From positions 1 through 32,686 of the forward strand of contig JAFVOP010000005.1 in assembly GCA_017505745.1 (NCBI GenBank): a DNA stretch of 32,686 bases, written 5' to 3'. The notes under the pieces were generated by a model, which saw nothing but the letters and a program-made list of their open reading frames with translations, did not search any database and was not told where the DNA came from. A program made the position numbers and the translations under genes. Each line of letters begins with the position of its first letter. The stretch's first letter is position 1. Origin of the DNA: Clostridia bacterium (GTDB lineage: Bacteria > Bacillota > Clostridia > Oscillospirales > CAG-272). Shown in pieces: positions 822 to 3,581 of the stretch.

Positions 822-913
822 GAAAAAAAGCAGCCGTCAAAAAAGCGTAATGTTTTTAGCGGAGAATTTATAAAACATCTTGCTTTATTTGAACCGTAGT
901 AAACAAAATAATG

Positions 914-944
914 AATGCCGACAGACTTAAAATCTGTCGGCATT
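914..944 (-). terminator. Hairpin terminator after the histidine phosphatase gene
   Basis: AATGCCGACAGA (914-925) and TCTGTCGGCATT (933-944) form a perfect 12 bp stem with a 7-base loop. Read on the minus strand it lies about 30 bases after the phosphatase stop codon and is followed by CATTATTTTGTTT, a moderately T-rich tail. No plus-strand gene ends here, so minus-strand termination is the natural reading. Confidence 0.7.
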
Positions 945-973
945 TGCTATTCAGTAAATTGGAATTTGGTAAA

Positions 974-1543
974 CTAACATTCAAACAAATTATACTTTCG
1001 GATATTAACGCACTTCATGTCTTCAAAAGTAAACTCTACAACCCAAGGCATTAATTGTCTAATCTTATCAAAATCAGAATAACCAAAAGTTTCGTCATAG
1101 TAATTAATAATTGTACTTAATGCCGTTCCATGACTACCAACAACGATATTTTTATTTCTGTACTGATTCAATACTCTACTTAAAGCAAGAATATTTCTTT
1201 TTTGCACTTCCCTTAAACATTCGCCATCCGATAATTTATAGCTAAAATCTTCCCACTGCTTTTGGGAGAATGCATTAAAATCCTCTATCCACCCACTATC
1301 TATTCGCCGTTCCTTGAACTCATCAATAATGGTAATACCTAAGTCTCTTAGTTCTGCAAACTCAGAAACCGTATCAATTGCTCTTTTATACGGACTTGAC
1401 AGCACAATATCAATTTGTTTATCTGCTAAAAAATCCGTAACAAGCCTTCTATCCTTTAATCCCTTATTCGTAAGTTCTCTTGACATATCATCATGATTAT
1501 TATAATTAGGTTCTGCGTGCCTAACAAAATATATTGTTGTCAC
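974..1543 (-). CDS. Histidine phosphatase family protein (phosphoglycerate mutase-like)
   Basis: This 189-residue protein has the histidine phosphatase fold signature. The N-terminal RHAEP (residues 8-12) supplies the phospho-accepting His, the ELTNKGL segment follows, and VGSHGTAL near residue 138 supplies the second His. Such enzymes dephosphorylate small metabolites or proteins in the cytoplasm; the substrate is not predictable here. The start codon is GTG at 1543, chosen because GAGGTG lies 7 bases upstream and the family motif begins immediately. The gene is clearly more AT-rich than the biosynthetic genes nearby and sits beside a repeat-bounded element, which suggests an accessory or transferred origin. 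It appears monocistronic, with a hairpin terminator downstream. Confidence 0.85.
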   Translation of the reverse strand: MTTIYFVRHAEPNYNNHDDMSRELTNKGLKDRRLVTDFLADKQIDIVLSSPYKRAIDTVSEFAELRDLGITIIDEFKERRIDSGWIEDFNAFSQKQWEDFSYKLSDGECLREVQKRNILALSRVLNQYRNKNIVVGSHGTALSTIINYYDETFGYSDFDKIRQLMPWVVEFTFEDMKCVNIRKYNLFEC

Positions 1544-1596
1544 TACTTATCACCTCGTCAAATTCTTATTTATCGTTTACCTTTATCGCCGGTTTC

Positions 1597-1615
1597 GCCT
1601 TTGTAATACAAAGGC
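1597..1615. repeat. Short palindrome upstream of the phosphatase gene
   Basis: GCCTTTGT (1597-1604) and ACAAAGGC (1608-1615) form an 8 bp stem with a 3-base loop. A second small stem, GGCTT...AAGCC, begins at its right edge. Together they fill the space between the phosphatase start and the left arm of the DUF559 element. They may be remnants of the same repeat family or part of the phosphatase 5' region. No function is assigned. Confidence 0.4.
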
Positions 1616-1657
1616 TTCTGGCAAAGCCCATACCCCTAAGGTGGTTGCGCATCCAAA

Positions 1658-1701
1658 GGCTCTCCCTTTGGGAGAGCTCCCGCCGCAGGCGGGTGAGAGG
1701 G
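1658..1701 (-). repeat. Left arm of the DUF559 element (double hairpin)
   Basis: Read on the minus strand from the gene outward, the arm is CCCTCTCA, then a 6 bp stem CCCGCC-TGC-GGCGGG, then an 8 bp stem GCTCTCCC-AAA-GGGAGAGC, ending in CTTT. The second stem plus the short T-run resembles an intrinsic terminator pointing out of the element, and it lies directly after the stop codon of the DUF559 gene. Confidence 0.8.
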
Positions 1702-1705
1702 CGTT

Positions 1706-2083
1706 TTACGGCAAGTTTTCAATTCTCTCATTGATCACTCTATCGATCATTCGGCAAACGCCGTCAAAATTTTCATCTATGTCTTTATTGGAAAAGCGCA
1801 AAACATAAATTCCATATTTTTCAAGAATCTCAGTTCTTTCCGCGTCATGTGCTTTGCCTTGATTTGTATAGTGCTTTGAACCGTCAAGCTCTATCACAAG
1901 ACGAGCAATATGGCAATAAAAGTCTGCAATAAAATTATCTATAATCCGTTGCTTGTATATCTTTACCGGATAATATCGCAAAAAATCATACCACAAATGC
2001 TTTTCATGCCGAGTCATATTACGGCGTAAAATTCTTGCGACATTCAACAACTCATTATTTTTCTTTAACGGTTCTTGCTCCAT
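1706..2083 (-). CDS. DUF559 family endonuclease-like protein
   Basis: The 125-residue protein matches the DUF559 pattern (Pfam PF04480, related to Vsr and the PD-(D/E)XK nuclease fold). It shows an N-terminal basic helix with MTRHEKHLWYDFLR, then IADFYC with Asp54, IELDGSKHY with Glu65 and Asp67, then Asp80, Arg83 and the YGIYVLRFSN strand. Length is usual for the family. It probably nicks or cuts DNA, but no function is established for most members. Start ATG 2083 is preceded at 4 bases by GGAGAGGG, which is the inner end of the right repeat arm, so the repeat itself provides the ribosome binding site. The stop codon is 4 bases from the left arm. A promoter lies just outside the right arm. 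Confidence 0.85.
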   Translation of the reverse strand: MEQEPLKKNNELLNVARILRRNMTRHEKHLWYDFLRYYPVKIYKQRIIDNFIADFYCHIARLVIELDGSKHYTNQGKAHDAERTEILEKYGIYVLRFSNKDIDENFDGVCRMIDRVINERIENLP

Positions 2084-2087
2084 TTTA

Positions 2088-2131
2088 CCCTCTCCGTCGG
2101 CTACGCCGCCACCTCTCCCAAAGGGCGAGGC
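2088..2131 (+). repeat. Right arm of the DUF559 element (double hairpin)
   Basis: Read on the plus strand from the gene outward, the arm is CCCTCTCC, a stem GTCGGC-TAC-GCCGCC (one mismatch), a stem CCTCTCCC-AAA-GGGCGAGG (one mismatch), then CTTTTT. It has the same layout and length as the left arm but is inverted. Three stem pairs have changed on both sides so that pairing is kept. The arm lies in the 5' untranslated region of the DUF559 gene and contributes its Shine-Dalgarno sequence. Confidence 0.8.
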
Positions 2132-2145
2132 TTTTTGTTCGTCCC

Positions 2146-2174
2146 ATTATAACACAAATCGGCAGAGAAAACAA
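2146..2174 (-). promoter_or_regulatory. Likely promoter of the DUF559 gene
   Basis: On the minus strand, TTGTTT (2169-2174) and TATAAT (2146-2151) are separated by 17 bp. The predicted transcript starts near 2139, runs through the right repeat arm and reaches the ATG at 2083. The promoter lies outside the element boundaries. Confidence 0.65.
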
Positions 2175-2193
2175 GTTTTCTACCGATTTGTGT
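2152..2193. repeat. Long inverted repeat overlapping the DUF559 promoter
   Basis: The outer arms ACACAAATCGG and CCGATTTGTGT (11 bp, about 2153-2193) enclose a second stem GAAAAC-AA-GTTTTC. The palindrome covers the -35 box and spacer and abuts the -10 box. It may be an operator, or a terminator remnant for the membrane protein gene upstream. Its T-tail on the minus strand is poor, so a terminator role is uncertain. A 7 bp stem, TTCTCCG...CGGAGAA (2203-2226), lies next to it. Confidence 0.6.
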
Positions 2194-2255
2194 ACCTGTA
2201 AATTCTCCGTTAAGAATCGCGGAGAAAAGCGACGGCGTTCTTTTTTTGAAATCGG

Positions 2256-2630
2256 TTATTTTTTGCGGTAAATACCAAGGCTTGCGCCTCGCACAAAAAG
2301 CAAAAACCCAATTACGGGCATTTGAATGCTACAAATAATTTGACGGTAGGGTTCCGCCGTATTGCACAGTTCCAAAATGACCGTAGCAATCACCAGTACG
2401 AAAAATAACGCGATATTGATAAAATAGGTTACGTATGCAATCTCTCTTTTTGGTATCACATCCCGAAAGCGCCGATAAGTGAACCAATCCCAAAAGGATT
2501 GCCCTTTTTTGCGATCTTCTCTATGGCGCCTGTTTTTTATGACTGTTGGAAGATAAATCGCCATTAACCCTCTGGTCAAAAAAAACAGAAGCAGGAACGA
2601 AAGTGTAACCACCAATAAAATGCTCCACAT
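2256..2630 (-). CDS. Small membrane protein of unknown function
   Basis: The 124-residue protein is not recognised. It has an N-terminal hydrophobic segment (about 3-22) and a basic loop (NRRHREDRKKG). Two further hydrophobic segments follow, around YFINIALFFVLVIATVIL and IICSIQMPVIGFLLFV, and the tail is RGASLGIYRKK. This predicts a three-helix membrane protein with a cationic cytoplasmic loop. Start ATG 2630 has AAGGAAA upstream. It lies 33 bases after the metA stop codon on the same strand, so it could be read from the end of the amino acid operon, although its AT-rich composition differs from that operon. Confidence 0.6.
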   Translation of the reverse strand: MWSILLVVTLSFLLLFFLTRGLMAIYLPTVIKNRRHREDRKKGQSFWDWFTYRRFRDVIPKREIAYVTYFINIALFFVLVIATVILELCNTAEPYRQIICSIQMPVIGFLLFVRGASLGIYRKK

Positions 2631-2663
2631 AGTGATATTTTCCTTTCCCGTTGTTGCGCTCGG

Positions 2664-3581
2664 TTATTTCAGATTTCCCAAATCAAACGGCGTGGTCTGG
2701 TACACGAAGTAATTGAGCCAGTTGGAATAGAGCAGGTTTGCCGACGAGCGCCAGGTGGCAGGCGGCGTCTTTTTGGGATTGTCGTTCGGGAAATAGTTTT
2801 TCGGGATCTCGATCGGCTTGCCCGCCGTCAGATCGCGCACGTATTCGCGATTGAGGGTGTCGGCATCGTATTCGGGATGTCCCGTGATGAAGATCTGTCG
2901 GCCGTTTCGGGTGGACAGCGCAAACACACCCGCCTCCTCGGAGGAAGCCAGAATTTTGAGCTTGGAGACCTTTTCCACGTCCTCACGGCGAATCGTTGTG
3001 TGGCGCGAATGCGGCACCATAAACACGTCGTCAAAGCCGCGGAACAGGATCGAGCGCTTATAGTCGGCCTTGTGCGGGAAAATTCCAAACAGCTTTTTGT
3101 CGAGCTGGTATTTTGGGATTCCAAAATGATGGTACAGTCCCGCCTGAGCGCCCCAGCAAATGTGAAAGGTGCTGTGTACGTGCGTAAGGCTCCAATCCAT
3201 GATCTCGCAAAGCTCGTCCCAGTATTCCACCTCCTCAAACGGCAGATGCTCCACGGGTGCCCCCGTGATGATCATTCCGTCAAAATTGCGGTGGCGTACC
3301 TCCTCAAAGGTCGAATAAAACGCGAGCAAATGCTCCTCGGAGGTGTTTTTGGACTGATGCGATGCGGTGTGCATCAGGGTAAGCTCCACCTGGAGCGGCG
3401 TGTTGCCCAAAAGACGCGAAAACTGCGTTTCGGTCACCACCTTGGTGGGCATGAGGTTGAGAAGCAGGATCTGTAACGGACGGATATCCTGTCCGGACGC
3501 GCGGGTTTCGGTCATGACGAAGATATTCTCTTCGGTGAGCGTGCGCGTTGCGGGCAGTTCATTGGGAATTTTGATCGGCAT
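2664..3581 (-). CDS. metA: Homoserine O-acetyltransferase (MetA family)
   Basis: The 305-residue, full-length MetA-family protein activates homoserine for methionine synthesis. The catalytic Cys is Cys142 (HICWGAQAG) and the His235/Glu237 pair lies in ITGHPEYD. Residue 111 is Glu in the [10 protein letters not shown] motif. In this family Glu111 favours acetyl-CoA and Gly111 favours succinyl-CoA, so the enzyme is predicted to make O-acetylhomoserine despite the usual succinyltransferase name. The adjacent metY, 18 bases upstream, encodes the matching sulfhydrylase. Start ATG gives [11 protein letters not shown], the normal family N-terminus, with GGGAGG just upstream. No SAM riboswitch or T-box was seen in front of the pair. 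Confidence 0.95.

Follow-up and report, generated by a model that had tools for sequence, protein, structure and literature searches.

Why should a small nuclease gene be packed between two inverted copies of a hairpin-forming sequence, and do the gene and its flanking repeats belong together? Bacterial genomes commonly contain short palindromic repeats, and the question arises at positions 1658 to 2131 of a 32,686-nucleotide (nt) stretch, here called the window (contig JAFVOP010000005.1 of assembly GCA_017505745.1, forward strand from position 1), taken from the 2.34 Mb genome of a Clostridia bacterium of the CAG-272 lineage. From sequence comparisons, we lean towards the view that the DUF559 nuclease and its own cognate palindromic arms, which resemble repetitive extragenic palindromes (REPs), form a self-spreading system with the logic of REPs and their REP-associated tyrosine transposases (RAYTs) and an unrelated enzyme. 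The unit consists of three features:

1706–2083, minus strand: DUF559 nuclease gene, 125 amino acids, predicted Vsr/EDxHD-like fold
2088–2131, minus strand: 5' arm, upstream of the gene; GCCTC..GGGAGAGG hairpin, TGGC, short second hairpin and GACGGAGAGGG tail (also resembling a ribosome-binding site)
1658–1701, minus strand: 3' arm; CCCTCTCACCC hairpin followed by CTCTCCCAAAGGGAGAG hairpin

The window protein matches PF04480 (DUF559) with an E value of 1.4e-27 (96.1 bits, gathering cut-off 20.6), and its Pfam matches are confined to DUF559 and related nuclease models; its closest named relatives, at no more than 94% identity, are from Oscillospiraceae/Clostridia metagenome-assembled genomes. 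A structure model resembles the homing endonuclease I-Bth0305I and Vsr, and the predicted catalytic fold is the Vsr-like one of the EDxHD homing endonucleases (PMC3943268). The gene is under purifying selection. PADLOC returned just matches to nuclease parts (E 6e-6 or weaker), and no Rfam family exceeded its gathering score over positions 780–2300.

Each arm is 44 nt long and is separated from the gene by 4 bp (1702–1705 and 2084–2087), and the two arms, inverted relative to each other, are identical at 33 of 44 positions; this geometry, claimed in a first-pass annotation made from the sequence alone, was borne out by direct reading, and the observation of a gene between inverted arms is confirmed. 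The inverted repeat can be extended to 47 nt at 77% complementarity and is the longest inverted pair within 1000–3000. Chance was considered as the origin of the pair and rejected on that ground and on two controls: 1000 mononucleotide shuffles of the flanks gave at most 25 matching positions, and the same spacing applied at 484 other places in the window gave at most 26. The same annotation had both arms as double hairpins. Folded as single-stranded DNA, the left arm forms two hairpins with z scores of −4.7 and −3.4 (two strands, relative to shuffles), whereas the right arm gives −1.6 and −1.9, and the description is therefore strong for the left arm and modest for the right. Across 23 distinct 3' arm sequences, pairing in the two stems was kept in 95.5% of cells compared with 84.8% in shuffles, and 47 cells were changed on both sides of a stem compared with 18.8; stem pairs with a double change numbered six against 5.2, which is no excess.

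Arms and nuclease among Clostridia

Relatives of the unit were taken as the best 80 of 94 loci from one scan of genome contigs (Bacillota). In 66 of these 80 DUF559 loci the gene has an arm no more than 60 bp from one of its ends, compared with 3 of 175 open reading frames (ORFs) taken from the same loci at a distance of over 300 bp; conversely, 139 of the 179 arm matches in 422,667 bp fall within 220 bp of a DUF559 gene. Window-like genes have one arm per side: in 16 of 21 the 5' arm ends 3–7 bp before the start, and in 15 of 21 the 3' arm begins 1–5 bp after the stop. Among the exceptions, several are cut by contig ends, are broken, or have another start. Many genes of a second kind, type B (proteins beginning MSLDYN), have their first arm translated as the C terminus of the protein (..ASLREGGGPR; L127–L155), and a third arm class with window-like anatomy brackets another DUF559 lineage, MQRKHNKD.. 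(L277, L286). One relative, L105, has three tandem 3' arms after the gene, and by eye ~40–50 bp of flanking sequence is repeated on both sides of the unit in L107 and L110.

The association was also seen when no arm sequence was supplied. A sequence-independent double-hairpin test was positive in 43 of 63 scored loci among the 80 (controls 36/257) and in 15 of 19 scored among 27 loci of the genus (controls 14/50). A first flank test, confined to sequence outside the ORF and to inverted repeats, was positive in 10 of 17 window-like loci (controls 1/55) and 6 of 55 other Clostridia (2/109), as well as in 4 of 12 non-Clostridial and 1 of 6 phylum-sample loci at a fixed cut-off with almost no controls; it is the weaker test because arms often overlap the gene ends and those of type B are one-sided. 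When the windows were extended into the gene and both orientations allowed, 22 of 72 Clostridia loci were positive, against 2 of 164 controls. A consensus-arm test in the genus was positive in 9 of 17 scored loci, the other 10 of the 27 being unscored as the motif missed the gene, and unblinded inspection by eye found hairpin repeats beside the gene in 13 of 15 genus loci (none at L287, doubtful at L284).

On the protein tree, arm class follows nuclease clade. In this tree of 76 proteins, from which 5 of the 80 loci were omitted, arms of class A require two changes (shuffled mean 17.1) and class B arms six (shuffled mean 22.9), and for neither class was any of 500 shuffles as low; the finer order of the tree is unsure because only two of its inner branches are starred. 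At distances of more than ~330 bp upstream and ~250 bp downstream of the gene, window-like copies have unrelated flanks: a match of at least 100 bp is shared by only 1 of 190 pairs upstream and by 1 of 171 downstream. Closer to the gene, the cassette modules treated below are common to many of these copies.

The arms are also a repeat family in their own right. The core palindrome has 16 matches with at most two mismatches in the source genome, both window arms counted, and its reversed control has none; BLAST recovered arm pairs with no DUF559 gene between them. Across 35 genomes of the genus, a query consisting of the 106-nt class A arm pair of a relative finds arms in 21, at 1 to 29 matches each, these counts being lower bounds as only part of the candidates was scored for two genomes. 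DUF559 itself (E 1e-10) is sporadic, occurring in 17 of the 35 at 1 to 4 copies. The mean number of arm matches is 9.4 in the 17 genomes with DUF559 and 1.9 in the 18 without (Mann-Whitney p 0.003), a correlation that is support and not proof because the genomes are mostly incomplete and related. The first-pass annotation had proposed looking for arms elsewhere without the gene and for full copies with different flanks, and both occur, the former in the source genome and the genus and including arm pairs; the combination it had set against itself, arms absent elsewhere and the same locus armless at the same place, does not. In the source genome, five elements (L007, L009, L010, L011 and L013) resemble miniature inverted-repeat transposable elements (MITEs), having CAATGTCATTCAGT inverted ends and an arm pair inside; by eye they are flanked by ~10-bp direct duplications, and some have 240–340 bp of extra sequence between the arms.

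This distribution bears on whether DUF559 could simply be a cellular Vsr-like nuclease for mismatch or hairpin repair, its repeats marking sites that tolerate insertions. Such a role has been proposed for Caulobacter VsrA (PMC12907096). A housekeeping function is hard to reconcile with a gene found sporadically, in 17 of the 35 genomes of the genus, with window-like copies in unrelated places, and with an arm class matched to the enzyme clade, and we consider this explanation distinctly improbable.

If nuclease and repeats are instead a self-spreading pair, the enzyme would recognise the arm hairpins, or the junction of a facing arm pair, and would cut or nick at arms or similar palindromes; host recombination would repair the break and in doing so copy the arm-bounded segment. 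Copying with the gene would amount to homing, and copying without it to the spread of solo arm pairs. The host would have to finish the job because the nuclease fold offers cleavage and no rejoining.

Least probable of the explanations considered is that the arms are expression elements, structured 5' and 3' untranslated regions for ribosome binding, processing or termination, with no part in mobility. The tail of the 5' arm contains GGAGAGGG, a candidate ribosome-binding site, 4 nt upstream of the ATG in the window, and the tail lies 3–7 nt upstream in the copies listed; the 4-bp spacing on the start side also fits the requirement of a ribosome-binding site, so that the arm tail can be read as one, and the type B arm encodes a protein C terminus. 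Structured leaders and trailers would not be expected to be shared inverted copies, nor to occur also as pairs without a gene, nor to bracket the gene as inverted repeats inside operons of Deinococcus and Sphingomonas. Under the self-spreading interpretation, the window arms may double as leader structure and ribosome-binding site.

DUF559 genes in other phyla

By tblastn against plasmid records, the window protein retrieved DUF559 from 34 records and a Sphingomonas protein retrieved it from 45. Twenty non-Clostridial loci were assembled, 19 chosen for spread over genera and one from a further record, and 13 of them have matching flank repeats, compared with 3 of 245 control ORFs, which were drawn from eight of the same records in 16 stretches of 20 kb. 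The positive loci are from Sinorhizobium (two), Neisseria, Deinococcus (four), Picosynechococcus, Sphingomonadales (three) and Azospirillum (two). In Deinococcus and Sphingomonas, the inverted repeats bracket the gene within operons; a DUF559 gene with inverted arms occurs between sufB and sufC (L250), inside hpa operons (L178, L248, L249) and between paaD and paaZ (L186). In Deinococcus QL22, paaD and paaZ are 83 bp apart with neither DUF559 nor arms, the spacers being too divergent for the junction to be read. The Sinorhizobium meliloti locus has 475 matching places, spread over 150 plasmid records that are mostly rhizobial; matches to the insertion sequence (IS) adjoining the gene are included in this total, and many of the matches are of 40–50 bp and comprise the arms alone. 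These arm matches seem to be RIME-like repeats.

The phylum sample yielded a match in 84 of 299 genomes, many of them to large proteins with a DUF559-like end and few to strong stand-alone genes, and the claim of association is accordingly limited and does not extend to all DUF559 matches. Four stand-alone genes of this sample were inspected by eye, and two (L205, L206) have hairpin repeats nearby. The Escherichia coli gene ycjD is also a DUF559 gene (L183), adjoined by a GGGGAGAGGGTTAGGGTGAGGGG repeat; a sapF-ycjD-fabI query has a place covering at least 80% of it in 3362 of 5426 complete E. coli genomes, and the three ycjD-less strains examined have an efflux operon after sapF and not a clean empty site.

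Judged by these comparisons, the association of gene and arms is real and broad, not universal, and a number of observations weigh against the self-spreading pair. Fourteen of the 80 Clostridia loci lack an arm within 60 bp, and kinship among the loci inflates the counts made on them; type B genes have both arms downstream and none on the upstream side. Within the genus, the bare presence or absence of arms relates to DUF559 only at p 0.055 (35 genomes): 8 of the 18 genomes with no detected DUF559 still carry arms, for example G007 (95% complete, eight matches), and 4 of the 17 with DUF559 have none found by the class A query. Outside Clostridia, matching flanks were not found at 7 of the 20 loci (E. 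coli, Photobacterium, Shinella, Synechocystis, A. brasilense, one Sinorhizobium and Novosphingobium), and the double-hairpin test was positive in none of six scored loci (14 not scored; controls 0/14 and 13/259), so the double-hairpin anatomy is not shared there. The other two stand-alone genes of the phylum sample, L207 and L208, have no repeats by eye, and a pattern-limited scan of viral contigs gave no relative.

The first-pass annotation had compared the unit to RAYT/REP in logic with a different enzyme, and finding cognate palindromic repeats around DUF559 genes in several phyla speaks for that comparison. More tentatively, and with decidedly less assurance than for the Clostridia, DUF559 nucleases across bacterial phyla could be the dedicated enzymes of a large class of palindromic repeats scattered through genomes (the CCTCTCCC/GGGAGAGG type, CGTC-type REPs and the RIME-like repeats of rhizobia), gene and repeats being spread by hairpin cleavage and host repair and not by transposase chemistry. 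No published link of DUF559 to palindromic repeats or REPs was found in the literature searched, which consisted mostly of freely accessible papers. A tiny nuclease matched by class to hairpin repeats in several phyla is a directly testable candidate; if the idea holds, an enzyme other than a transposase can sustain a repeat family, and a role is suggested for a domain whose function is unknown and to which E. coli ycjD belongs.

The surrounding phosphatase cassette

The unit is embedded in the leader 5' to a phosphatase gene, between two modules that are themselves repeated:

2143–2236, minus strand: promoter-like module with a palindrome (inverted repeat, 2152–2193), −10-like TATAAT (2146–2151) and a TTAACGGAGAATT motif towards 2215; repeated in the source genome and relatives
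1579–1650, minus strand: leader module of two further hairpins before the cargo gene; repeated before different cargo genes in the source genome and relatives
974–1543, minus strand: cargo gene, histidine phosphatase (branch 1; PF00300, E 8.4e-24)
914–944, minus strand: terminator-like hairpin after the cargo gene
845–870, plus strand: probable far end of the cassette, read directly as a GCGGAGAATT motif inverted relative to the motif near 2200

Because the same modules recur before different cargo genes in the genome and genus (acetyltransferase- (GNAT), NUDIX- and HAD-like by reading), the arm-bounded unit is nested in a second gene cassette, itself apparently mobile. The family takes in window positions 845–2236 together with L046, L050, L051, L055, L058 and L091–L094, all laid out as a promoter-like module with palindrome, a variable slot, a double-hairpin leader with ribosome-binding region, and diverse cargo. 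The promoter-like module was not picked up by a consensus promoter scan, and its promoter function is putative. At the DNA level, no other copy of the phosphatase gene was found in the genus. The end motif is present in 16 of 27 promoter modules, and an A-tract of at least five lies upstream of it in 12 of the 16, compared with 612 of 4000 random 60-mers. AAAAGCG at about 838–844 and 2230–2236 may be the target duplication of the cassette. The cassette ends in the window split a terminator-like GCCGTC/GACGGC hairpin, and cassettes may therefore insert into terminators.

That the arms are the ends of a moving unit in the window, as had been suggested, is unsupported: the pair is nested inside the cassette leader, in other cassettes this slot is taken by arm pairs without a gene, inspection by eye reveals no target-site duplication beyond the arms, and the 4-bp gap on the start side also fits a ribosome-binding site. 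An empty site does exist, in G005, where metA and an aldo/keto reductase gene are 26 bp apart, the only such case among the matches listed. The whole 1.9-kb insert is absent there, so that the site is that of the larger insert and not of the arm unit, and the 124-amino-acid gene at 2256–2630 is missing as well, for which reason G005 does not fix the exact cassette ends. The window unit would have entered, or persisted in, the leader of a phosphatase cassette that is itself apparently mobile.

The slot between the cassette modules holds arms only, a DUF559 gene, or a RAYT-like gene. RAYT-like genes are present in L055 and, in G000, in L056 and L058 (L058 protein against Y1_Tnp, E 2.3e-6), and in L055 and L058 the leader module follows directly. 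Their sharing of the slot raises the alternative that DUF559 is a passenger, the arms being termini or remnants of an element that a different enzyme mobilises, either a RAYT/IS200-like one or that of a MITE-generating IS. The arm pairs inside the MITE-like elements of the source genome, with their CAATGTCATTCAGT ends and apparent duplications, agree with that explanation, as does G007 in having arms and no detected DUF559. A passenger would not be predicted to match its arms class for class or to keep their company in several phyla, and, in the sequence inspected, the L058 RAYT-like gene has none of these arms at its flanks. Y1_Tnp was not found in G001, G009, G013 or G020, which have 23, 11, 29 and 7 arm matches, by a search whose limited sensitivity is seen in its missing the RAYT-like genes of G000. 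We regard a passenger role as unlikely, if the least unlikely of the alternatives to a self-spreading nuclease.

Comparison with known systems

Like RAYT/REP systems (REPtrons; GTAG REPs), the unit combines one small enzyme gene with short palindromic repeats on its flanks; the repeats are also found in the absence of the gene, frequently as inverted pairs, and their class tracks that of the enzyme. The defining arrangement, a gene flanked by repeats that are also found alone in several copies, is present here with DUF559. Unlike RAYTs, DUF559 is a PD-(D/E)XK/Vsr-fold nuclease and not an HUH tyrosine transposase, and cannot rejoin DNA: Pfam found no such transposase between the window arms, only DUF559 and related Vsr-like nucleases. 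The window arms likewise have no unpaired terminal GTAG tag, GTAG occurring only within the loop of one arm and not being conserved in relatives. Of the terminal inverted repeats and target-site duplication that mark an IS or MITE, the window has inverted arms, and inspection by eye disclosed no duplication outside them. EDxHD homing endonucleases such as I-Bth0305I differ in that DUF559 here comprises the catalytic domain only, with no extra DNA-binding region, and no intron was recognised. In contrast to the Vsr repair endonuclease and Caulobacter VsrA, the DUF559 gene is bounded by repeats and scattered.

The repeats themselves have a partial likeness to the CGTC-tagged REPs, reported in 2013 without a dedicated transposase (Di Nocera 2013, PMC3733652); the words Firmicutes, Clostridi- and DUF are absent from the main text of that paper. 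Those REPs have a CGTC or TGTC head, a stem of 8–9 bp, a loop of 4–5 nt and a CCA tail. Similarly, one arm of a DUF559 pair often has CGTC, a stem-loop and a GCCA tail, the two arms are paired in opposite orientation, and the window 5' arm reads CGTC..GCCA with a short stem. The window arm differs in its stem of 3–4 bp and its extra outer hairpin, and the other arm is without CGTC; a strict search (CGTC or TGTC, stem of at least 4, GCCA) found no such hairpin in the window. The same search found 20 near DUF559 in 12 of the 80 Clostridia loci, a density of 0.60/kb against 0.011/kb in the rest of these loci, or ~50-fold higher, and outside Clostridia it was positive at 1 of 20 loci only, with three hairpins beside the Novosphingobium gene, despite the failure of that locus in the flank test. 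DUF559 is a candidate for filling part of the gap left by the missing transposase of the CGTC-tagged REPs.
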